A stretch of DNA of 64,000 bases from Phycisphaeraceae bacterium (GTDB lineage: Bacteria > Planctomycetota > Phycisphaerae > Phycisphaerales > Zrk34). The notes under the pieces were generated by a model. That model searched no databases. It saw only the letters and a program-made list of their open reading frames with translations, and was not told where the DNA came from. The translations under genes were made by a program, and so were the position numbers. The DNA lies in assembly GCA_028282805.1 (NCBI GenBank), contig JANQHD010000023.1, positions 310,001 to 374,000 on the forward strand, in the 5' to 3' direction. Positions 32,509-45,189 of the stretch are shown here, one piece after another (position 1 is the first letter of the stretch; each line of letters opens with the position of its first letter).

Positions 32509-33440
32509 GCGAAACGGGACGGAAGTACTGCCTGATCAGCCCCTGCCGCGACGAGGCGGCGTACATGGAGCGGACGCTCGAGTCGGTGACCAAGCAGACC
32601 GAGCCGCCGGCGTTGTGGGTGATCGTCGACGACGGTTCGACCGATGCGACGCCGGATGTTTTGCGGGAGTGGTCGGCGCGGTTCGATTACATCAAGGTGA
32701 TCACGCGCGAAGACCGCGGGGCGCGCAAGGTGGGGCCGGGCGTGATCGAGGCGTTTTACGCGGGTTACGAGGCGATCGAGCCGAGCGAGTTTGATTACGT
32801 GTGCAAGTTTGATTTGGATTTGGATTTGCCGGCGCGTTACTTCGAGGTGTTGATGGATCGCATGGAAGCCGAGCCCCGGCTGGGCACGTGCAGCGGCAAG
32901 GCGTACTTCGAGAAGGACGGCAAGCTGGTCAGCGAGAAGTGCGGCGACGAGAACTCGGTGGGCATGACCAAGTTTTACCGCACCGCGTGCTTCGAACAGG
33001 TCGGCGGGTTCGTGCGCGAGGTGATGTGGGACGGGATCGACGGCCATCGCTGTCGGATGCTCGGTTGGATCGCGGCGAGCTGGGACGAAGACGACCTGCG
33101 CTTCATTCACCTGCGGGCGATGGGTTCGAGCCACAAGGGCATGTGGACCGGGCGCATGCGGCACGGGTTCGGCCAGTGGTTTATGGGCACGTCGCTGGCG
33201 TACATGACGGCCAGCGCGCTGTTTCGCATGACGCGCCCCCCGGTGGTGGTGGGGGGTTTGGCGATGTGGTGCGGTTACGTGCGGAGCATGTTCAGGCGTT
33301 TGCCGCGCTACGGCGACGCGGCGTTCCGCAAGTTTTTGAGGCGGTACCAGTGGCAATGTTTGTTGAAGGGTAAGGCGAAGGCGACGGCGCAGCTGAACGA
33401 GGCGCAGGAGCCGGTGTGGGAGGCGACGTGGGCGAAGTGA
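32505..33440 (+). CDS. Family 2 glycosyltransferase
   Basis: 311 residues from GTG 32505. YCLISPCRDEAAYMERTLES, ALWVIVDDGSTDATPDVLRE and YVCKFDLDLDLPARYFEVLM are GT2 marks; the last gives the D-x-D site. The C-terminal RMTRPPVVVGGLAMWCGYVR is hydrophobic and may touch the membrane. Related enzymes are common in exosortase and EPS loci. Confidence 0.88.
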   Translation: MSETGRKYCLISPCRDEAAYMERTLESVTKQTEPPALWVIVDDGSTDATPDVLREWSARFDYIKVITREDRGARKVGPGVIEAFYAGYEAIEPSEFDYVCKFDLDLDLPARYFEVLMDRMEAEPRLGTCSGKAYFEKDGKLVSEKCGDENSVGMTKFYRTACFEQVGGFVREVMWDGIDGHRCRMLGWIAASWDEDDLRFIHLRAMGSSHKGMWTGRMRHGFGQWFMGTSLAYMTASALFRMTRPPVVVGGLAMWCGYVRSMFRRLPRYGDAAFRKFLRRYQWQCLLKGKAKATAQLNEAQEPVWEATWAK

Positions 33441-34285
33441 GCGACATCGACGCGAAACAGGCGCACAGCGACAACCGCGCTAAGCCGCAAGCGGCTATCG
33501 CGATGGTGGAGGTGCACGGCGTGGCGATGCACGCGCTGAGCGAAGAGCAGACCAACGCGCACGTGCTCGACGAGATCGAAGCGGGGCGCGGCGGCTGGGT
33601 GGTGACGGCCAACCTCGACCACCTGCGCCGGCTGGTGCGTGACCCGTCGTACGGCGAGCTGTGCGAGGGGGCGGATTTGATCGTGGCCGACGGGATGCCG
33701 TTGATCTGGGCGTCGCGCATCGCGGGCACGCCGTTGCCCGAGCGCGTGGCCGGCTCGTCGCTGGTTAGCACGCTCAGCGAGCAAGCGGGGCGGCGCGGGC
33801 GGAGCGTGTACCTGCTGGGGGCGCAGGACGGCGTGGCGGAAGCGGCGGCTAAGGTGCTCGACCAGCGCTGCGCGGGTCTGAAGATCGCCGGCGTGTACAG
33901 CCCGCCGTACGGCTTTGCCCACGAGGGCGAGGAGATGCGCAAGATCGAAAGGTTATTGGACCGGGCCCGGCCGGACATTGTTTATGTCGCTTTGGGTTCG
34001 CCCAAGCAGGAGTTGTTGATCAACCAGCTGCGCGACCGTTTGCCGGGCGCGTGGTGGGTGGGCGTGGGCATCAGCTTCAGTTACCTCACCGGCGATGTGC
34101 GTCGCGCGCCGCGGTGGGTGCGGGCGACGGGGCTGGAGTGGGCTTATCGGCTGTTCCAGGAGCCGCGCCGGCTTTTCAAGCGGTACCTGGTGCAGGGCGT
34201 GCCGTTCGGGCTGTGGCTGCTGTTGCGGGCGCTGATCGGGCGTTTGCGGCCTCAGAGGCGGGCCCGTTTGGCCGATTATGGCTGA
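33437..34285 (+). CDS. WecG/TagA/CpsF family glycosyltransferase
   Basis: 282 residues from GTG 33437. Family marks: WVVTANLDHLRRLVRDPSYG, ADLIVADGMPLIWASRI with the catalytic Asp, RVAGSSLV, VYLLGAQDGV and DIVYVALGSPKQELLINQLR. The family adds N-acetylmannosaminuronic acid, ManNAc or glucose to the lipid-linked first sugar. Last gene of the first block. Its N-terminal extension includes the 21-nt palindrome at 33476-33496. Confidence 0.92.
   Translation: MSDIDAKQAHSDNRAKPQAAIAMVEVHGVAMHALSEEQTNAHVLDEIEAGRGGWVVTANLDHLRRLVRDPSYGELCEGADLIVADGMPLIWASRIAGTPLPERVAGSSLVSTLSEQAGRRGRSVYLLGAQDGVAEAAAKVLDQRCAGLKIAGVYSPPYGFAHEGEEMRKIERLLDRARPDIVYVALGSPKQELLINQLRDRLPGAWWVGVGISFSYLTGDVRRAPRWVRATGLEWAYRLFQEPRRLFKRYLVQGVPFGLWLLLRALIGRLRPQRRARLADYG
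33476..33496. repeat. 21-nt palindromic repeat inside a coding region (copy 2)
   Basis: Identical over 21 nt to 12982-13002, with the same AGCCGC/GCGGCT hairpin and the same reading frame. Here it lies in the non-conserved N-terminal extension of the WecG-like protein. Confidence 0.75.
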
Positions 34286-34336: not shown

Positions 34337-34417
34337 GTTGGGCTGCAAAACACGTCTTCTCGATTGGGTTGGGAGCGTGGTTGGTGCCTAGAGAAGTGAG
34401 TGGGTAGGTAACAGGTG

Positions 34418-35380
34418 ATGGCTACGGTCGATCGGCAGAGCGGTGTCGGTGCGTCGAGCAGCGACGGGGAGTCGCAGCGTCGCTTCATGCGCGACAAGCT
34501 GCGCGCGGTGGTGTTGTTGAGCGGGTCGGTGCGGCCCAGCGAGCTGGACCGCGCGATCGGCCGGTCGCTGCTGGACCTGCCCGTCGACGAGTCGGGCACC
34601 CTGCTCGACCACTGGCGCGGCGAGGTCGCGGGGTTGGCCGACGACGTCGGGCTCGCGCAGCTGCCGTTGCGCGTGATGATCTCGCGCAACGCGCCGCACC
34701 CGAGCGTCGACGGCCCGGGCGACCCGGTGCCCGTGGCGATCGAGGAAGACCCCGCCGACTTCCGCGGCACCGGCGGCCTGCTGCGCGACGCGGTCGAGCA
34801 GTACGACGACGACGACTACCTGCTCGTCGTCAGCGGCGCGCAGCTGTTGTTGCGGCCGTTGGCCGAGGTGGCGTTGGGCCTGGCGCAGGTCGGCGGCGAC
34901 GTGGTGGTCGTCTCGCACAACGACGGCACGCCCGGTGGCGTGATGCTGCTGCGGTGCCAGGCGGTGCGCTCGATCTCGCCCAAGGGGTTCGTGGATTTGA
35001 AGGAACAATCGTTGCCGGCCATCGCCGAGTCGTTCCGCGTGAACGTGCTGGACCTCGATGAGCCCAGCGGCGTGCCGATCCGTACGACCGGCGACTACCT
35101 CGGCGCGTTGCGCCGGCACTACCGCCGGCTGGCCGGCGAGCAGGACGTGCACGACGCGTTCGCCGAGACCTGGCAGGCGATGTTCCGCATCGTCGAGCCG
35201 GGCGCGACGGTTGCGCCCGACGCGCGGGTGCACAACTCGGTGGTGTTGGCCGGGGCGCGCGTCGACGGCGGCGCGGTCGTGGTCAACTCCGTGGTGCCGC
35301 CCGGGCAGGTCGTCCGCCGGCGCGCGAACGTGATCGATCAACTGGCGGGCTCCAAGGCCCCGGGCAACGGGAGGCGGTAG
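34418..35380 (+). CDS. Degenerate sugar nucleotidyltransferase-like protein with hexapeptide tail
   Basis: 320 residues. The overall plan resembles NDP-sugar pyrophosphorylases: an N-terminal nucleotide-fold region opening LRAVVLLSGSVRPSELDRAI and a C-terminal left-handed beta-helix (GATVAPDARVHNSVVLAGAR, VDGGAVVVNSVVPPG). The catalytic signature GxGTRLxPLT...PK is absent, replaced by SGSVRPSELD. It is therefore probably a regulatory or scaffold pseudoenzyme. ATG 34418 chosen over the adjacent GTG 34415. Four bases separate it from the exosortase start. Confidence 0.6.
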   Translation: MATVDRQSGVGASSSDGESQRRFMRDKLRAVVLLSGSVRPSELDRAIGRSLLDLPVDESGTLLDHWRGEVAGLADDVGLAQLPLRVMISRNAPHPSVDGPGDPVPVAIEEDPADFRGTGGLLRDAVEQYDDDDYLLVVSGAQLLLRPLAEVALGLAQVGGDVVVVSHNDGTPGGVMLLRCQAVRSISPKGFVDLKEQSLPAIAESFRVNVLDLDEPSGVPIRTTGDYLGALRRHYRRLAGEQDVHDAFAETWQAMFRIVEPGATVAPDARVHNSVVLAGARVDGGAVVVNSVVPPGQVVRRRANVIDQLAGSKAPGNGRR

Positions 35381-35383
35381 GGC

Positions 35384-36370
35384 ATGGCGCTGCGCACCTG
35401 GCAACGCAACGGCTGGTCCAACCGCCACATCGCCGCGGCGATCGCGATGACGCTCGTCGGCCTCGTCGCCACGCGCGGCGCGTGGGCCGAGATCTACCAC
35501 AAGGCCACCACAAACCCCGAGCTCAGCCACATCCTGCTCGTGCCCTTCATCGTCGCCTGGCTGGTCTACATCCGACGCGGACGCTGGCGCCAGTGCCAGC
35601 CCGACGGCCAGTTCATCGGGCCCGTCATCGTGGCGATCGGCTGGTACCTGTCGTGGTACGGCTACAACGACCCGTCTTCGATCGACCTGTTCTACCACGG
35701 CGGGTCGCTCATGATCGTCGTCGGCTGCCTGCTCAGCGTGCTGGGGCGCGACGTGCTGTTTCGGTTCCTCCCCGCGTTCGCGGTGCTGGTCTTCATCCTG
35801 CCCGTGCCCGCCCGCATCAGCGACCCGCTCGCGGCCAACCTCCAGGTCGTCGCCGCCGTCTCCACCCAGCACCTGCTCGAGATGCTCGCCATCCCCGTGC
35901 AGCGCGAGGGCTCGCTGCTGACGATCAACGGCGTCGAGGCGCTCGTCGCCGAGGCCTGCAACGGCATGCGCGGCGTGTTCACCCTCATCCTCGTCTCCTA
36001 CGCCTTCGCCTTCGGCACCCCCCTGAAAAACTGGGTGCGGGCGACCATCCTCATCGCCTCGCCCATCACCGCCCTGGTCTGCAACATCGTCCGCCTGATC
36101 CCCACCATCTGGCTATTCGGCCAGAACGAAGACCTGTGGGTCGTGCGGGCGCTGCGCTGGATGCACGACGCCCTGGAGTTCGGCACCCGGTTCCTCGCGG
36201 ACTTCGGCCTGCACTACCAGGGCCACGAGAAGCTCGCCGCGGCCATGTTCTTCCACGACATCAGCGGCTGGATCATGATCTTCGTGGCGTTCTTGTTGTT
36301 GTTGGGCATCATCCGCGTCCTCCGCTGGGCGCTGGTGCCGGTCACCCAGTACACCCTGGCCTACGACTGA
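35384..36370 (+). CDS. xrt: Exosortase (EpsH family transpeptidase)
   Basis: 328 residues with about eight membrane segments. The catalytic trio is visible: Cys192 (VAEACNGMRG), Arg237 (CNIVRLIPT) and His291 (FFHDISGW). An N-terminal NPELSHILLVPFIVAWLVYI also fits the family. Exosortases cut C-terminal PEP-CTERM-like signals and are thought to pass the protein to a surface anchor. Substrates in this window are the proteins at 45669, 47009, 52976 and 53901, three of them with a VPLP rather than VPEP motif. The gene's neighbours (EpsI, Wzz-kinase, TPR protein) are standard for EPS-linked exosortases. Confidence 0.95.
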   Translation: MALRTWQRNGWSNRHIAAAIAMTLVGLVATRGAWAEIYHKATTNPELSHILLVPFIVAWLVYIRRGRWRQCQPDGQFIGPVIVAIGWYLSWYGYNDPSSIDLFYHGGSLMIVVGCLLSVLGRDVLFRFLPAFAVLVFILPVPARISDPLAANLQVVAAVSTQHLLEMLAIPVQREGSLLTINGVEALVAEACNGMRGVFTLILVSYAFAFGTPLKNWVRATILIASPITALVCNIVRLIPTIWLFGQNEDLWVVRALRWMHDALEFGTRFLADFGLHYQGHEKLAAAMFFHDISGWIMIFVAFLLLLGIIRVLRWALVPVTQYTLAYD

Positions 36371-36384
36371 TGGAGGGCGGATCG

Positions 36385-37059
36385 ATGAAGCGCATCTTTT
36401 CGGCATTCTGGCCCGCCCTGCTCTGCGTGGCGCTGGCGGCGGGCGTCTTCGCCCAGACCTTCAAATACCCCACGGCCGAGTCGTTCGAGCCCTACCACCA
36501 ACGGGTCGCCCAGGCCATGCGCTACTTCCCCGACAAGCTGGGCGACTGGGGCGACATGGAAGAGGCCCCGCTGAACTACAACGCCGAGGGCATCCTCAAC
36601 CCCAACGTCATGATCAGCCGCCTGTACTTCAACAAGAAGCTCGGCCAGTGGGTGCAGTTCATGTTCTACCAGTCCAAGAACGCCGAGCACATGCGCGGCC
36701 ACTACCCGCCGATCTGCTACGGCAACAGCGGCTACACCACGGTCGGCGCCCCCCAGCCCGGCGCTTGGCGCTGCGGCCGGCAGACCGTCAACGGCATGGA
36801 GTACACCTTCACCCGCAACGACAACACGCTGCTGGTCGCCAACTTCGTGATCCTGCCCGACGGGCGCATCGTGACCGACAACCGTGACCTGTCGGAGTTC
36901 GCCGCCAACCGGCGCCTGCGCTACTATGGCGCGGGGCAGGTGCAGATCGTCTTCTTCAGCGCCGCGATCCCCGTCGAAGACCGCATCGCCACCTACGAAC
37001 TGTTCCTCGCCGCCGCCGCCGACGCGATCGAGGTGATCCAATCAGGAGTCGAACGGTGA
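36385..37059 (+). CDS. epsI: EpsI family protein (exosortase-associated)
   Basis: 224 residues with an N-terminal signal or anchor (FWPALLCVALAAGVFAQ). The typical EpsI pattern is present: FPDKLGDWGDME, VMISRLYFNKKLGQWVQFMF, and HYPPICYGNSGYTTVG with the conserved His and Cys. EpsI proteins accompany exosortases, sometimes fused to them; their biochemical role is unsettled. ATG 36385 has GGAGGGCGG just upstream; ATG 36370, overlapping the exosortase stop, is the alternative. Confidence 0.88.
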   Translation: MKRIFSAFWPALLCVALAAGVFAQTFKYPTAESFEPYHQRVAQAMRYFPDKLGDWGDMEEAPLNYNAEGILNPNVMISRLYFNKKLGQWVQFMFYQSKNAEHMRGHYPPICYGNSGYTTVGAPQPGAWRCGRQTVNGMEYTFTRNDNTLLVANFVILPDGRIVTDNRDLSEFAANRRLRYYGAGQVQIVFFSAAIPVEDRIATYELFLAAAADAIEVIQSGVER

Positions 37060-39536
37060 ACCAGCCCCCACCCATCCCCGCCAAGGACGACACCATCCAG
37101 CGCGACCTGGCGTTGGTCGACCAGGCCGTCGCCGCCGACCAGGAGGTCACCCAGCAGTCGCACCCGTTCAAGCGGCTGCACGCGCTGCTGCGCGGGCGCT
37201 ACCCCTACGCCATCGGCCTCGCCGTCGTGCTCGCGACGATCTGCGGCGTGCTCGGCTGGCGCTCGGTCACCCTCGAGTACACCTCCGACGTGCACATCCG
37301 CGTCGACCCCTACAAGCAAGCCATCCTCTACCCGACCGAAGAGTCCGGCGTCATGCCCATGCTCGACGCGTTCATCAGCCAGCAGGTCGACCGCATCTAC
37401 GACCCCAAGGTCATCAAGCTCGCGATGGAAAACGAGAACTGGCGCGCCTTCCGCCCCGCCCTCGGCCCCCAGGCCCAGCTCGAGTTCCGCAAGGCCATGT
37501 GGGTCTACAAGAACCACGCCTCCAAGACCATCACCATCTCGTTCGCCGACAACGACCCCAAGATCGCCCGCACCGGCGCGTCGGCCATCGCCCTGGCCTA
37601 CCAGCGCCTGCACGGCGACCGCGACACCCAGGAGGACAACAACCGCCTGCAGGTGCTCGAAGCACGCCGGAGCATGCTCACCAACTCCATCAACACCCTC
37701 ACCGGGCAGATCATCGACAACGGCAAGGAATACGGCACCGACGACCTGGCCGAACAGTACACCTTCCTCACCGCGGAACTGCAGAAGATCGAGACGGCGC
37801 TGAAGGAGGCCGAGTTCGTCCTCGCCCAATCCGGCGCCTCGCCCGACGACACCGACACCGACCCGGACGCCGAGACGCCCACGCGCTCGACGGACCTGAC
37901 CGCCAACCAGATCGCGGCCAAAGACCGCCAGATGCGCGACCTGATCGAAGACCGCAACAAGCTCAAGCTCGCCATCGACCACCTGGCGCTGCGCTTCGGG
38001 CCCGGTCACAAGAAGCTCAAGGAAAACCGCGACCGGCTCGGGCTCATCGAGCAGCAGATCGAACAGCGCGTGCGCGATTACAACGACAGCCGAGAGACCG
38101 GCGACACCAGCAACGCCAGCTTCGCCGCCGAGCAGATGGGCGTCGAGCAGCTCAAGAAGCGCATCGCCAGCCTCAAGGAGCTGCGCAGCAAGAGCCGCGA
38201 CAAGACGCTCGAGGTCGGCCGCAAGCACATGGAGATCCAGAAGCTCAAGGCCGAACGCGAGCAGCTGACCGTGCTGTTGACCGAAACCATCCGACGCATC
38301 GACCAGCTCAACGTCGAACGCGCCACCGGCGACCGGATCACCATCGGCGAGGCGTCCAACCCGCTCGAGCCCTCCAACGCCTCGTCCCGCCAGAAGTACG
38401 CGGCCATGGGCGGCATGGCCGGCTTCAGCCTCGGGTTCGGCGTGTTCCTCGTCATCGGCCTGTTCGACCGGCGCTTGCAGACCTCCATCGACGTGCAGCT
38501 GACCATGCGCGGCCTGCGCCTGCTGGGCATCCTGCCCTACCTGCCCGACGACTTCGACGACCCCGAACGCGCCACCATCACCGGCTACTGCGTGCACCAC
38601 ATCCGCGCCATGCTCCAGCTCGGCAGCTTCGGCGACCAGAGCGAGACCTTCGCCATCACCTCGCCGGCCTCCGGCACCGGCAAGACATCGCTCACGCTGG
38701 CGCTGGGCCTCAGCTTCGCCGGCGCCGGGTCGCGCACGCTGCTGATCGACTCCGACCTCGCCGGCGGCGGCCTGTCGCGCCGGCTCGAAGCGATCATCCG
38801 CCGGCGCATCGGCCAGGTGCTCATCCGCCGCGGCCTGCTCAACGAGGGCCAGCTCGACGAGGCCCTGCGCATCAGCCAGGTCACCGGCAAACGCCTCGGC
38901 GAGTCCGTCGTCAGCCTCGGCTTTGTCACCGAACGCCAGCTCGAACAGGCCCTGAGCCTGCAGGACCAGGCGCGCGTCGGCCTGCTCGATGCGCTCGACG
39001 GCGAGCCGATCGACGACTGCATCATCCCCACCGAGGTCGACAACCTGTCGATCCTGCCGGTCGGCGGCGCCAAGGCCGACGACATGTCGCGCGTCGCGCC
39101 CAACGACCTGCAGCGCGTGCTCGCCGAGGCCCGCCAGCGCTACGAGGTGATCCTCGTCGACACCGGCCCGGTGCCCGGCAGCGTCGAGTCGGCCATGGTC
39201 TGCGCCGGCGCCGACAAGGTCGTGGTCGTCGTGTCGCGCGGCGAGAACCGCACCGACGCTGAGCACGCGATCCAGTTCCTCCACTCGGTCGGGTCGAACG
39301 TGCTGGGCCTGGTGTTCAACCGCGCCGACGAGCCCGACTTCGCCCGCAGCGTCTACTCGTCGTCGATGTCCAAGCGCTCCATGCCCCGCGAGGTGCACCC
39401 CGACACGGCGCAACCCGGGTCGACGCGCTACGGCCCGCTGGCCCGCGAGGTCGCCGGCACCACCGTCTCGACCAACACCGCGCCCTCGGAGTCGGGCTTC
39501 TTCGACGACACGATCGAGGGCAACGAACAAGAGTAA
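37056..39536 (+). CDS. Wzz chain-length protein fused to BY-kinase-like ATPase with inserted MshEN-like domain
   Basis: 826 residues from GTG 37056 (AGGAG upstream, 4-base overlap). Wzz part: membrane helix near 50-66 (GLAVVLATICGVLGW), coiled region about 190-420, second helix GGMAGFSLGFGVFLVIGLF. ATPase part: Walker A SPASGTGKTSLTLALG (about 535-550), Walker A' TLLIDSDLAGGG, Walker B VILVDTG. Between A' and the following GLLDAL segment lies an extra unit (about 584-636) of two MshEN-like motifs: IGQVLIRRGLLNEGQLDEAL and RLGESVVSLGFVTERQLEQA. MshEN domains of type II secretion and pilus ATPases can bind c-di-GMP. No tyrosine cluster is seen at the C-terminus. Confidence 0.88.
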   Translation: MNQPPPIPAKDDTIQRDLALVDQAVAADQEVTQQSHPFKRLHALLRGRYPYAIGLAVVLATICGVLGWRSVTLEYTSDVHIRVDPYKQAILYPTEESGVMPMLDAFISQQVDRIYDPKVIKLAMENENWRAFRPALGPQAQLEFRKAMWVYKNHASKTITISFADNDPKIARTGASAIALAYQRLHGDRDTQEDNNRLQVLEARRSMLTNSINTLTGQIIDNGKEYGTDDLAEQYTFLTAELQKIETALKEAEFVLAQSGASPDDTDTDPDAETPTRSTDLTANQIAAKDRQMRDLIEDRNKLKLAIDHLALRFGPGHKKLKENRDRLGLIEQQIEQRVRDYNDSRETGDTSNASFAAEQMGVEQLKKRIASLKELRSKSRDKTLEVGRKHMEIQKLKAEREQLTVLLTETIRRIDQLNVERATGDRITIGEASNPLEPSNASSRQKYAAMGGMAGFSLGFGVFLVIGLFDRRLQTSIDVQLTMRGLRLLGILPYLPDDFDDPERATITGYCVHHIRAMLQLGSFGDQSETFAITSPASGTGKTSLTLALGLSFAGAGSRTLLIDSDLAGGGLSRRLEAIIRRRIGQVLIRRGLLNEGQLDEALRISQVTGKRLGESVVSLGFVTERQLEQALSLQDQARVGLLDALDGEPIDDCIIPTEVDNLSILPVGGAKADDMSRVAPNDLQRVLAEARQRYEVILVDTGPVPGSVESAMVCAGADKVVVVVSRGENRTDAEHAIQFLHSVGSNVLGLVFNRADEPDFARSVYSSSMSKRSMPREVHPDTAQPGSTRYGPLAREVAGTTVSTNTAPSESGFFDDTIEGNEQE

Positions 39537-39567: not shown

Positions 39568-40989
39568 ATGATCCAAAACGCTCAAGCCGACACCGACCGC
39601 TCGCAGTGGCCCACGATGTGGGGCCTGAACCCCGACCAGTTGCACGTGCGCTTCTGGGCGGCGCGCGGCGTACAGGTCGTCCGCCAGGGCGAACGGCCGG
39701 AGATCGTCGAAGACGCCGAGCTGTTCCTGCTGGTCGACCCGCGCACGATGACGATCTTCCGCCTGCGCCAGCTGATGGACCAGCTGACCTGGCTCAAGCC
39801 CGACCTGTTGCAGGTGCGCATCCGCGACAGCCGCGAGCCCGGTTACCGCGAGCACGCGATCAGCGACGACGACGGGCGGTTTAAGCGGTTCGAGCGCGAC
39901 TACGGCGTGGGCGACTCGCGGCTGACGCGCGTGGCGCTGACCCCGCACCGGCACATCGCCGAGGTCTGGCGCAGCGCCCCCAGCCCGCGCGACGGCTGGC
40001 GCCGGCTGCGCCGCGACATCCCCCACACCCGCCGCTCGGCGATGACCATCAGCGGCCGGGTCTACGACCAGCACGCCGATGGCCAGGTCGTGCAGTTCGT
40101 GCGCGACCTGGTGCAGGCGTGGCGTCGGCCGGACGCGACGATCGACCACGTCGACCGCCACGCCAACGGCGTGTGGGCGGGCAACGACGCGGTCGTGCCC
40201 CCCGGCGCACGGTTCATCGGCAACGTCTGGGTCGGCGCCGGCCGCACGGTCGACGAGCAGGTCAACATCGTCGGCCCCGCCGTGCTGTGGGACGACCCGG
40301 CGCACCGGCCGACCGTCGAAGAGGTGCGCTGGCGCGAGATCGAGCCGACGGAGGTGTTCGCCGCGCCGCTGTCGACGAAGCTGCGCTCGAACCTGCACCG
40401 CGCGGCCAAGCGCGCGTTCGACATCGTCTTCGCGAGCGTGGTGCTGGTGCTGACGCTGCCGCTGTACCCGCTGATCATGCTGGCGATCTGGCTGGAGGAC
40501 GGCCGGCCGTTCTTCTTCGCCCACGAGCGCGAGGCGATGGGCGGCGAGCCGTTCCCCTGCCTCAAGTTCCGCTCGATGCGCAAGGACGCCGACGCGATCA
40601 AACGCCGCCTGGAAGAGGAGAACCAGTCGGACGGCCCGCAGTTCTTCATCGAAGACGACCCGCGCATGACGCGCGTGGGCAAGGTGCTGCGCGCGTTGCA
40701 GCTCGACGAGCTGCCGCAGTTCCTCAACGTGCTGTTCGGCGACATGTCGGTGGTGGGCCCCCGGCCCAGCCCGTTCAAGGAAAACCAGTTCTGCCCCGCG
40801 TGGCGCGAGACGCGCCTCAGCGTGCGGCCGGGCGTCACGGGCCTGTGGCAGATCATGCGCACCCGTGAAGAGGGTTTGGACTTCCAAGAATGGATCCGCT
40901 ACGACATCGAATACGTCGAACGCGCCAGCTTTGCCCTGGACCTGTGGATCATCTGGAAAACGATCTTGCTCATCATCCGCTGGAGATAA
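39568..40989 (+). CDS. Polyprenyl-phosphate sugar phosphotransferase with N-terminal beta-helix-like region
   Basis: 473 residues. The last 200 are a complete bacterial sugar transferase: one membrane helix (RAFDIVFASVVLVLTLPLYP), KFRSMRKDAD, DPRMTRVGKVLR, LDELPQFLNVLFGDMSVVGP, RPGVTGLWQI. This enzyme class places the first sugar-1-phosphate on undecaprenyl phosphate. The first 270 residues are unusual and contain left-handed beta-helix turns (GARFIGNVWVGAGRTVDEQV) like those of nucleotidyltransferases, in place of the usual multi-helix or CoA-binding N-domain. It probably initiates the polymer built by the first block. Confidence 0.9.
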   Translation: MIQNAQADTDRSQWPTMWGLNPDQLHVRFWAARGVQVVRQGERPEIVEDAELFLLVDPRTMTIFRLRQLMDQLTWLKPDLLQVRIRDSREPGYREHAISDDDGRFKRFERDYGVGDSRLTRVALTPHRHIAEVWRSAPSPRDGWRRLRRDIPHTRRSAMTISGRVYDQHADGQVVQFVRDLVQAWRRPDATIDHVDRHANGVWAGNDAVVPPGARFIGNVWVGAGRTVDEQVNIVGPAVLWDDPAHRPTVEEVRWREIEPTEVFAAPLSTKLRSNLHRAAKRAFDIVFASVVLVLTLPLYPLIMLAIWLEDGRPFFFAHEREAMGGEPFPCLKFRSMRKDADAIKRRLEEENQSDGPQFFIEDDPRMTRVGKVLRALQLDELPQFLNVLFGDMSVVGPRPSPFKENQFCPAWRETRLSVRPGVTGLWQIMRTREEGLDFQEWIRYDIEYVERASFALDLWIIWKTILLIIRWR

Positions 40990-40995
40990 AGACGC

Positions 40996-43900
40996 ATGGT
41001 GGTTCGTGCAAAAACACGTAAGCGACTGGTGATCGTGCTGGTCACGGTCGTCCTGGTGGTCGGCCTGGTCACCGGGTACCTGGTCGCCAAGCGCAACAAG
41101 GCCGAGAAGAACCTGCAGCTCAGCCGCCAGGAGGGCATCGAGTACGCCCTCAACGGCGAGCACAACAAAGCGGTCAACAGGCTCGGCACCTACCTGACCG
41201 ACACGCGCAACAGCGACATCGTGGACGTCGAGGTGCTGCTGCTGTACGCCAAGGCGCGCGAGCACGTCGAGGACCGCGGCGACAACCACATCATCGACGC
41301 GATCAACAAGCTGCGCCAGGCCGTGCCCCACGACCCCGGCAACACGCAGGCGCGGCGCGACCTGGTGCGGCTGTACACCACCAGCGGCCGGTACAACACC
41401 GAGGCGATCGAGCTGGCCCGGAAGCTGCTCGACACCGACCCGGCCGACAGCGAGGCGTTGTGGGCGATGGCGGTGTGCAGCGCGCGCAAGCGCGAGTTCG
41501 CCGAGGCGATGAGCTACGCCGAGCGTTACACCCGGCTCAACGCCCTGTCGTTCCGGGGCCACCGCCTGACGCTGAACATCCTCCACCAGATCGACCGCCC
41601 GCGTGAGCAGATCGTCGCCTACGTCGAAGGCCTGCTGGCGAAGGAACCCGGCGAGCCGCGTTACCAGGTGATCGCCGCCTACGCCTACACGCTGCTCGAA
41701 GACAAGGCCAAGACCACCGAACACATCGACCGCGCGATCGAGACCATCGTGCCCGACAAGGACACCACCGGCGAGGCGTTCTACATCCTCCAGGAGCTGC
41801 ACCGATACGACGACGCCCGCGCCTACCTCGGCCGCGCGCTCAAGCAGGCCGAGACCGAGGGCCGGCCCGTCGACCGGAACCTCAAACGCCAGTACGTGGT
41901 CAGCCTCTGGGAAGCCAACCGCTACCACGACATGATCGAGCAGCTCAAGGACTACCGCTACTCCAACAAGGAGATCGACAGCCAGCTGCTCGCCCTGCGT
42001 GTGCTCGCGCTCAAGAGCATGGGCCGGGACGCGTCGGAAACCGAAGGCCCGATCACGGCGCTGAGCAAGCGGAAGGGCACCACCGCCGAGGCGTGGTCGA
42101 TCATCTTCGCCAGCGGCCTGATCGACGGGAAGCTCAAGCCCGCCCGCGCCGTGGAGGTCTGTCAACAGGCGGTGGGCGTCAACGAATACAACGCCTACCT
42201 GATCTGGATGCTGGGCAACGCGCACTACGCGGTGGGCGACACGGACCTGGCGCTGAACCGCTGGCTCCAGGCCGCGTCGTACCGGCGCGGCTGGCCGGCG
42301 CCGGCGGTGTCGATCTCGAAGCTGTTGCGCCAACGGCGGGAGTACGTCTTCGCCGCCCAGTGGGCCCAGAAAGCCTGCATGCGCGCGCAGACCAGCTACG
42401 ACGCGATCATCACCTACGCCGAGGCCTCTTCCGACCTGCTCGACCGCGCCGAGCCCGCGGCCATCGCCGACCTGCGCCGGCGGATCGAGATGGCGCGCAG
42501 CCAGGCGCCGTCCGAGGCGCGGCTGATCATGGTGTACGCCAAGGTGCTCGCGCACCAGGGCGACAAGGACCAGCTTGAGGTGCTGGTCGGCGAGGTGTTG
42601 AACATCAAGCCCTCCCCGCCGGCGGAGCTGCTGGTGAGGATGGCGGACATCAGCCGGGAGCGGGAGCTGGGCCTCGACCAGCCCTTGCTCGACCGCGCCC
42701 AGGCCGTCGCGCCCAACTCGCCGCAGGTCGCGCTGGCGCAGGCGATGTTCGCCGCGATACAGGGCGAGGTCGAAGACGGCCGGCAGATACTCGAGAACGC
42801 GCGCACCAACAGCAACGCGCCCGACTCGCCGGCGTGGCGGATCCACGCCATCCGTTACGAGGTGCTTCAGGGCAAGCGGGTCGACGCCGCGACGTGGGCG
42901 GCGCTGGCCGACGATTACGCCGAGGCGCTGGCGGTGCAGAAGCTGGTGCTCGACGAGCCGGGCGCCTGGCAGGACCGCGCGCTGATCGACCGGGTGATCG
43001 ACCGCCTGAAGGCTTTGACCGGCGAGCAGAGCGTCAGCTGGCGCATCTACCGCGCCCGCTGGCACATGCACAAGGGCGACGCCGTGTCGATCGCCGACGC
43101 CGTGAAGCTGTTGGAACACGTCATCAAGCAGTCGCCCAACCGGTTCGAGACGTACCTGTTGCTGGCGCGCTGCCTTCAGCTGCAGGACAAGACCTCCGGC
43201 GCGATCAAGGCGTACAGCGATGCGCTGACCCTGCGTCCCACCCACCTGACCACCAAGCTGGCGCTGGCGAACCTCCACCTGATCCAGAACGACCCGGGCA
43301 AGGCCGTCCAACTGATCAAGGAGATCGTCTCGGCGGAGAACGTCACCCCCACGGTGCTGCGCAGCGCCGCGCGGCTGGCCATGAACGCCGAGCGCACGGA
43401 CCTGAGCCTGCAGATCGTTCAGGCCGCCAAGGCCGCCGAGCCCGACAACGTCACCAACGACCTGTTGCTGGCCGGCGTCTACCGGTCCAAGGACCAGGAC
43501 GCCAAGGCCGAGGCGATCTACCGGCGACTGCTCGAGAAGCCCACGCCCGCGACGATCGAGCTGGTCAGCGATTACTACGCGTCGTCGGGGCGCATGGAAG
43601 AGGCGCGCGCGACCCTCGCCCGCCTCGAAGAGGCCGACGCCGCGCCCGACATGGCGGCGATCATCCGCGGCACGTTCGAGCTGACCTACGGCCAGACCGA
43701 CGCGGCGCTGGCCCAGTTCCAGGCCGCCGTCGACGCCGCGCCCGCCGCCGACTCGCACTGGGGCCTGCTCATCGGCCAACAGGTGCGCTTCGGTCGCCTC
43801 GACGCGGCGCTGGCCAGCCTCGACCGCGCCGCCGAGGCCTGCCCCACCAGCCCGTTGATCACCGAGGCGCACGCCAACCGCCCGCTGCTCGAGAAGCTCG

Positions 43901-45189
43901 GCCGGTACAACCTGTTCCGCTCGTTGCTCGTGAGCATGGTGTCGGACGCCAAGAACCAGGCGCCCGCCATCGAGGCGCTGAAGCTGCTGGAGAAGACCAC
44001 CGTCGAGCAGCTCTCGCAGGGCGAGGTCGAGGTGGCGATCCGCTCCATCGGCGCCCGTTACCCCAGCTACCTGCCGTTGCAGATGGTGACGGTCCACCTG
44101 GTCCGCCGGCAGGGCCGCGTGGAAGACGCCGCCGAGCTCGCCCGGCAGACCGCCCGGGCGTTCCCCGAGGCCTCCGAGCCCGCCGCCCTTGCCGCCGAGT
44201 TCTTCGCCACCGCCGGCCGGTGGCGCGAGGTGCTGGAGGTTTCCAGGGAATGGCGTCGCCGGATCACCCACGACCCGCTGCCCGCCGACCTGATGATGGC
44301 CCGCGCTTCGCTGATCCTCGATCGGCCGGAGGACGCGCTGCGCATGACCCGGCCCTACATCAAGATGGCCCTGGCCGACGCCGACACCTACGCCCAGCTC
44401 GTGCTCGCCCACTGCCACGCCCTGATCGCGCTCGAGCGCCAGGCCGAGGCCGAGAAGATGCTCAGCCCGAGGCTCGCCGAGTCTCAGCCGATCCGTTCGG
44501 TGTGGATGCAGCTGGCGTTGTTCGGTTTCGACGACGCCGACTCCGCCGGGGCCTGGCTGAAGCGGATCGAGCCGATCGTCGCGACCAAACCGGTCGAATA
44601 CGTCTCCCTCGCGCAGATGTACCGCGGCGTCGACGAGCGTTTCGGGATCGACGTCTACAAGGACCGCGCCACACAGATCCTCGAAACACTCGTCGCCGGC
44701 GACGACCCGCCGGTCGAAGCCGTCAAGGCCCTGGCGATGCTCGAGGACTTCCGCCGGAACAAGCCGCGCGCTATCGCGCTGTACCGGCGGGTGCTGGCCA
44801 TGGACGACCAGGACGCGCTGGCGATGAACAACCTGGCCATGCTGTTGCTCGAAGACGACCGTTCCGCCGAGGAGGCGTACGCGCTGGCGTCACGCGCCGC
44901 GGAGTTGGCGAGCAGCTCTCCCTCGTTGCAGGACACGCTTGCCCAAGCATTAAGCAAGCTCGGCCGGCACGACGAAGCGGTGCTCGCCATGCGCAAGGCC
45001 GTGCAGCTCGAACCGCGCAGCTTCGAGATGTGGGTCCGCCTCGGCCACATCTACCTCGACGCGGGAAACACCCAGGAAGCGACCGATATCCTCAAACGCC
45101 TCGAAGAAGAAGCCCTGACCAACGAGAACCTCGACATCAAGCTCCGCCAGAGCATCAACGGCCTGCGAACCCGCCTGATTTCCGGGTGA
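40996..45189 (+). CDS. Giant TPR protein of the EPS/exosortase system (PrsT-like)
   Basis: 1397 residues: a short cytoplasmic start, one membrane helix at about 10-32 (LVIVLVTVVLVVGLVTGYLV), then a long array of tetratricopeptide repeats to the end (for example ALNGEHNKAVNRLGTYL, ALALYRRVL-type units such as RAIALYRRVLAMDDQDALAM). Long TPR proteins called PrsT accompany PEP-CTERM loci in proteobacteria and probably organise export in the periplasm. It starts six bases after the sugar transferase and ends the operon; a terminator follows at 45286. Confidence 0.87.
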   Translation: MVVRAKTRKRLVIVLVTVVLVVGLVTGYLVAKRNKAEKNLQLSRQEGIEYALNGEHNKAVNRLGTYLTDTRNSDIVDVEVLLLYAKAREHVEDRGDNHIIDAINKLRQAVPHDPGNTQARRDLVRLYTTSGRYNTEAIELARKLLDTDPADSEALWAMAVCSARKREFAEAMSYAERYTRLNALSFRGHRLTLNILHQIDRPREQIVAYVEGLLAKEPGEPRYQVIAAYAYTLLEDKAKTTEHIDRAIETIVPDKDTTGEAFYILQELHRYDDARAYLGRALKQAETEGRPVDRNLKRQYVVSLWEANRYHDMIEQLKDYRYSNKEIDSQLLALRVLALKSMGRDASETEGPITALSKRKGTTAEAWSIIFASGLIDGKLKPARAVEVCQQAVGVNEYNAYLIWMLGNAHYAVGDTDLALNRWLQAASYRRGWPAPAVSISKLLRQRREYVFAAQWAQKACMRAQTSYDAIITYAEASSDLLDRAEPAAIADLRRRIEMARSQAPSEARLIMVYAKVLAHQGDKDQLEVLVGEVLNIKPSPPAELLVRMADISRERELGLDQPLLDRAQAVAPNSPQVALAQAMFAAIQGEVEDGRQILENARTNSNAPDSPAWRIHAIRYEVLQGKRVDAATWAALADDYAEALAVQKLVLDEPGAWQDRALIDRVIDRLKALTGEQSVSWRIYRARWHMHKGDAVSIADAVKLLEHVIKQSPNRFETYLLLARCLQLQDKTSGAIKAYSDALTLRPTHLTTKLALANLHLIQNDPGKAVQLIKEIVSAENVTPTVLRSAARLAMNAERTDLSLQIVQAAKAAEPDNVTNDLLLAGVYRSKDQDAKAEAIYRRLLEKPTPATIELVSDYYASSGRMEEARATLARLEEADAAPDMAAIIRGTFELTYGQTDAALAQFQAAVDAAPAADSHWGLLIGQQVRFGRLDAALASLDRAAEACPTSPLITEAHANRPLLEKLGRYNLFRSLLVSMVSDAKNQAPAIEALKLLEKTTVEQLSQGEVEVAIRSIGARYPSYLPLQMVTVHLVRRQGRVEDAAELARQTARAFPEASEPAALAAEFFATAGRWREVLEVSREWRRRITHDPLPADLMMARASLILDRPEDALRMTRPYIKMALADADTYAQLVLAHCHALIALERQAEAEKMLSPRLAESQPIRSVWMQLALFGFDDADSAGAWLKRIEPIVATKPVEYVSLAQMYRGVDERFGIDVYKDRATQILETLVAGDDPPVEAVKALAMLEDFRRNKPRAIALYRRVLAMDDQDALAMNNLAMLLLEDDRSAEEAYALASRAAELASSSPSLQDTLAQALSKLGRHDEAVLAMRKAVQLEPRSFEMWVRLGHIYLDAGNTQEATDILKRLEEEALTNENLDIKLRQSINGLRTRLISG

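Follow-up and report, generated by a model that had tools for sequence, protein, structure and literature searches.

The locus and its Wzz-type protein

The window analyzed here is a stretch of 64,000 nucleotides from the genome of a Phycisphaeraceae bacterium. Its forward strand carries genes in the order exosortase, EpsI, Wzz/ATPase, sugar transferase, and PrsT-like TPR protein, an exosortase-type exopolysaccharide (EPS) operon whose gene order was also found at most of 80 related loci (those with flanks). These loci were retrieved by searching genome contigs with an alignment as the query; a single protein as the query returned 0 loci. Upstream lies a WecG/TagA-type glycosyltransferase (33416-34285, +; PF03808, E = 2.3e-58). 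The exosortase, of the EpsH family (35384-36370, +; PF09721, E = 1.4e-42; TIGR02602), is followed by an EpsI/DUF3485 protein (36367-37059, +; PF11984, E = 8.3e-9), the Wzz/ATPase gene, a polyprenyl-phosphate sugar-1-phosphate transferase (39568-40989, +; PF02397, E = 1.7e-60; TIGR03025), and the PrsT-like TPR protein (40996-45189, +), for which the match to TIGR02917 (E = 8.6e-51) is under the model's cut-off. A 321-residue protein encoded between the glycosyltransferase and the exosortase (34415-35380, +) is kept in most of the 80 loci; it has no match in NCBIfam and only a sub-threshold hexapeptide match in Pfam. At its N-terminus, the sugar-phosphate transferase is extended by ~280 residues (39568-40400, +) that match no Pfam profile.

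The Wzz/ATPase gene (37056-39536, +; GTG start) encodes a protein of 826 residues that profiles and Foldseek identify as a Wzz-type polysaccharide co-polymerase fused to a BY-kinase-like ATPase. Among NCBIfam profiles it matches TIGR01007 (eps_fam; E = 5.7e-23) and TIGR03007 (XrtA chain-length determinant; E = 2.5e-7); the Wzz-like region is covered by TIGR03007 and TIGR03017, and the ATPase is a P-loop domain of the Eps/BY-kinase type that also matches CbiA/AAA_31. Hydropathy places two transmembrane helices at about residues 50-70 (37203-37265, +) and 448-470 (38397-38465, +). The ATPase follows the second helix and is expected to be cytoplasmic, on a membrane topology that we assign by analogy with Wzc. 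Its Walker A core (GTGKT, from residue 540; 38673-38687, +), Walker A' (LLIDSDL, from residue 562; 38739-38759, +), and Walker B (VILVDTGP, from residue 698; 39147-39170, +) occur in the normal order, as had been read initially from the sequence. The AlphaFold2 (AF2) model of the ATPase with its insert has a mean pLDDT of 86.9, and the PDB structures matched to the ATPase by Foldseek are the kinases CapAB, Wzc, VpsO, and BceF.

BY-kinases are defined by a DxDxR motif and a C-terminal tyrosine cluster. The three Walker motifs and the BY-kinase fold are present in the window protein, but the arginine of DxDxR in Walker A' is replaced by alanine; the insert-bearing rows of the alignment have V (36), A (7), I (5), E, S, or F at this position, with no arginine listed. 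The tails of 52 insert-bearing rows contain mostly 0-2 tyrosines and at most 3 per 20 residues, so that none has a cluster. Both features are missing from the insert-bearing forms and from nearly all of the insert-less ones. Because of these two losses, the domain is probably not a tyrosine autokinase and is better named a BY-kinase-like ATPase; the initial annotation as a kinase-type ATPase of a Wzz protein is corrected in this respect.

An MshEN_N domain within the ATPase

Residues 584-636 (38805-38963, +), between Walker A' and Walker B, form a domain of the c-di-GMP-binding MshEN_N type, as judged by the profile NF053729, the AF2 model, and fold comparison. The insert consists of two 24-residue motifs separated by a 5-residue spacer, with the contact glycine Gly3 in both, as G586 and G615. 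Motif I, RIGQVLIRRGLLNEGQLDEALRIS (residues 584-607; 38805-38876, +), has Ser in place of Gln24, and motif II, RLGESVVSLGFVTERQLEQALSLQ (residues 613-636; 38892-38963, +), is canonical. The total of 53 residues is exactly the length by which MshEN_N is defined in PMC5013675.

When we compared residues 584-636 with NF053729 (c-di-GMP-binding, MshE-related; curated cut-off of 38 bits), the match covered profile positions 1-53 of 53 with 57.4 bits (E = 9.2e-16), making the insert the second-best match to this profile in its own whole genome, where one other scores higher. Among 29 aligned inserts (that of the window and 28 from other genomes), 26 match NF053729 on their own, which argues against a chance match, and a profile built from the 29 matched PilF and MshE in the PDB (5htl, E = 1.5e-11). 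The Pfam profile PF05157 (MshEN, 90 positions) did not match the window protein, most likely because the MshEN_N half alone is present and the C-terminal half is absent, rather than because the fold is different. We rejected Pfam FumaraseC_C, which scored 28.5 bits on the insert (cut-off of 32.5), as a helix-bundle look-alike; in the fold comparison, fumarases score below MshE and PilF.

In the AF2 model the insert is a four-helix bundle (residues 585-591, 597-610, 614-620, and 626-636), and the mean pLDDT of ten-residue blocks is 85-94. The top match of a model of the insert alone, by both Foldseek and VIA-align, was MshE with c-di-GMP (5htl; 37-40% identity), which VIA-align superimposed over 62 residues with a Z of 9.4 and an rmsd of 2.3. 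Since Foldseek gave this 85-residue model weak E-values, the best being 0.039, and since for a helical bundle a Z of 9.4 is modest, the fold match supplements the sequence match and cannot stand alone. Taken together, the insert almost certainly has the MshEN fold. The initial recognition of an MshEN pattern is thus borne out by the full-length NF053729 match, the predicted fold, and largely intact contact residues, with the qualification that the site is non-canonical, lacking the motif-I Gln.

Insertion site, distribution, and phylogeny

Insert-less homologues have 9 residues at the site and insert-bearing homologues have 67 (modes), which gives a net insertion of 58 residues. It lies between Walker A' and the GLLDAL segment, where ~53 extra residues with two tandem motifs had been noted at the outset. 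In a survey of the class, alignments of homologues either continue across the insert or are interrupted near residues 578 and 640. Orthologues bear the insertion as well, and 30 distinct rows, mostly from Phycisphaerae, retain the guanine-contact signature; this signature is kept across several families of the class. Insert-bearing and insert-less orthologues share one operon slot, and several genomes, among them G086, G098, and G145, encode both forms.

In a tree computed without the insert columns, 55 insert-less rows fall on one side of a branch with an SH-aLRT of 99. Mapping of the insert state gave three changes in all, one of which is a nested insert-less clade (L116-L124), on a tree whose inner forks are open and some of whose branches are long; one insert-less clade is nested among relatives with decayed motifs. 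Two proteins from Candidatus Hydrogenedentota (L114 and L115) have a degenerate insert in their ATPase, which is encoded in an operon of the same type, and their nesting among Phycisphaerae in the sequence tree suggests transfer between phyla. At the same ATPase site, five proteins from other Planctomycetota (L166, L167, L168, L170, and L181) have longer inserts that by eye are unrelated, which marks the site as an insertion hot spot, possibly for different sensor domains. Plasmid searches returned known MshEN ATPases, NfrB-like glycosyltransferases, and ordinary BY-kinases, with no further example of the insertion.

Ligand-contact residues and selection

Contact residues were counted in 49 distinct rows whose inserts are 60-70 residues long. 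Both guanine-contact glycines are kept in 30 of these, and one or both are lost in 19 with the insert length unchanged. In the 30 rows, which were chosen by Gly3 in both motifs, motif-II Gln24 is present in 30/30 and motif-I Gln24 in 0/30. Position 24 of motif I is Ser in the window protein and mostly Ala in the family (Ala, Ser, Gly, or Val in relatives), and position 10 of motif I is variable (G in 18 and K in 8 of the 30). The window insert therefore has Gln24 in motif II only, not in both motifs. Perfect conservation of the motif is not needed for c-di-GMP binding (PMC5013675). PilF Q190E retains binding at 950 nM, and NfrB, with Arg at position 24 and Gln at position 10 of motif I, binds with a Kd of 1.0 uM; by analogy with these two proteins, the loss of the motif-I Gln, a real departure from the canon, should be tolerable for binding. 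Eight changed positions are cited for the loss of binding in XpsE, which has a non-binding MshEN-like domain (PMC5013675); none of the eight (0/8) is changed in the window protein.

On the tree rows, the contact glycines are co-kept or co-lost (both in 29, neither in 17, one in 2), a pattern that amounts to only ~5 independent changes among related sequences and for which a paired test is not significant. In lineages without these glycines, either decay of the domain is under way or it serves a second role that needs no ligand. The closest pair of the window protein (with L077) is 77% identical in the insert, 80% in the rest of the ATPase, and 37% in the periplasmic part, with dN/dS of 0.43 for the insert and 0.39 for the ATPase. 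Where the motifs have decayed, several pairs are clearly less identical in the insert than in the ATPase (73 vs 89, 55 vs 78, and 67 vs 85%), but not all are (91 vs 95 and 94 vs 95%). The insert is under purifying selection, and many Phycisphaerae retain it at this one site.

c-di-GMP signalling genes in the host genomes

The genome from which the window derives has 12 GGDEF, 2 EAL, and 8 PilZ matches; among those listed, none is inside the window. GGDEF genes occur in 22 of the 22 genomes checked, those with decayed inserts included, and we accordingly rejected a link between insert state and the presence or absence of GGDEF. The same genome encodes two short stand-alone MshEN-like proteins with a degenerate motif II (G000:C41:47255-47671, 164 residues; C52:170606-171022, 218 residues), the former adjoining a GGDEF gene of opposite orientation.

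Proposed mechanism and alternatives

Considered as a whole, the observations are best explained, with a fair degree of likelihood, by an inserted c-di-GMP-binding MshEN_N domain that couples polymer export or chain length to c-di-GMP. Binding of c-di-GMP by the insert is the more secure part of this proposal and is predicted with good probability; for control of the ATPase and of EPS by that binding, we lean only slightly in favor. One c-di-GMP would be held between the tandem motifs in the manner of MshE but with one ribose-phosphate Gln contact instead of two, and because of that missing contact the affinity would probably be micromolar to sub-micromolar. The insert is joined to the ATPase at both ends, ~17 residues past the second Asp of Walker A', and since both ends join near this motif, ligand binding may alter the A'/inter-subunit surface. 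Such a change would promote or block nucleotide-dependent assembly of the co-polymerase ring. In this way the c-di-GMP pool would come to govern the exosortase-linked polysaccharide, in its export or its chain length. Ligand binding could also stand in for Wzc-type tyrosine phosphorylation where the tyrosine cluster is missing. The broader proposal that, in Phycisphaerae, direct c-di-GMP control through an inserted MshEN domain replaced tyrosine-phosphorylation control of a Wzc-type ring, yielding a one-protein regulator of chain length and export, is tentative and rather doubtful. A replacement of phosphorylation by c-di-GMP as the switch is speculative, and the loss of the cluster and the insert are not strictly linked, because insert-less forms also lack the cluster.

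A different reading retains the MshEN fold and dispenses with the ligand: the insert would be an adaptor that docks a partner, as do the N-domains of GspE/XpsE and PilB, or that lines the co-polymerase ring interface. It would account for the persistence of same-length inserts without the contact glycines (19/49), the loss of the motif-I Gln in all rows, and the variability of motif-I position 10, and the fold matches include complexes of PilB N-domains with PilZ. A pure adaptor has no obvious need, however, for the motif-II Gln24 that is invariant in the 30 Gly3-selected rows, and insert-less members occur within one decayed clade; we consider this reading unlikely. The departure in motif I could instead mark a changed specificity, the family-wide, one-sided Gln loss giving an asymmetric half-site for another ligand such as 3',3'-cGAMP or a different dinucleotide. 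MshEN binds cGAMP weakly (PMC5013675), but the guanine-reading backbone contacts at Gly3 of both motifs are symmetric and kept, and NfrB, with the same Gln loss, binds c-di-GMP specifically, leaving this the least probable of the alternatives. Nor does a merely insertion-tolerant loop, in which a domain was gained neutrally without regulatory function, appear to be more than very unlikely: the longer inserts of the five other planctomycete proteins at the same site agree with it, whereas purifying selection on the insert near that on the ATPase, and a signature kept across several families of the class, do not.

The usual c-di-GMP targets in polymer production are synthases (cellulose, PGA, and NfrB systems). 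If the c-di-GMP reading is true, a sensor in the co-polymerase ATPase would act at the step where Wzx/Wzy-type polymers have their chain length set and are exported, and the biofilm signal may, as predicted from the MshEN-type domain, switch polymer export directly. Orthologues with an intact insert, a decayed insert, and no insert in one operon type constitute a natural experiment. Our searches of the open-access literature turned up no MshEN protein reported from Phycisphaerae, and the system would open c-di-GMP signalling in this class to study.

Comparison with known systems

The initial annotation knew of no described example of this arrangement. As far as could be found, insertion of MshEN inside an ATPase is undescribed: the open-access literature and the text of PMC5013675 yielded no fused Wzz-ATPase with such a domain inserted between Walker A' and B. 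The pairing of MshEN with an EPS kinase, on the other hand, is already known at the sequence level, from the EpsG profile and PMC5013675. That 2016 MshEN paper names exopolysaccharide biosynthesis in Methylobacillus and lists fusions of MshEN to REC, HD-GYP, CheA, Ser/Thr kinase, glycosyltransferase, and other domains.

The EpsG profile (TIGR03029; chain-length-determinant tyrosine kinase of Methylobacillus-type EPS) matches the insert with its positions 4-57 and the ATPase with the rest. Its MshEN segment is N-terminal to the kinase, whereas the window protein, in which Wzz and ATPase are fused, has it between Walker A' and B; EpsG systems encode the Wzz part separately, as EpsF. The window protein scores 69.1 bits over three stretches, under the EpsG cut-off of 313.8 bits, and in 246 Planctomycetota 0 genomes have an EpsG above it, the matches listed beginning at profile position 42 or beyond. 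NfrB of E. coli likewise uses an MshEN domain that lacks the motif-I Gln in control of a polysaccharide machine, but is a glycosyltransferase with the domain at its C-terminus and no co-polymerase. The BY-kinases Wzc, CapAB, VpsO, and BceF share the ATPase fold and Walker A, A', and B with the window protein, and Wzc also has a fused membrane part; they differ from it in having no MshEN insert and in possessing the DxDxR motif and C-terminal tyrosine cluster. MshE of Vibrio cholerae (5htl), the best fold match to the insert and the second by sequence after PilF, has the same 53-residue 24+5+24 tandem, four-helix bundle, and contact Gly, Leu, and Arg residues. In MshE the domain lies at the N-terminal side of a T4P/T2SS ATPase and MshEN_C follows it, whereas in the window protein it is embedded in a P-loop ATPase from a different family and has neither MshEN_C nor the motif-I Gln.
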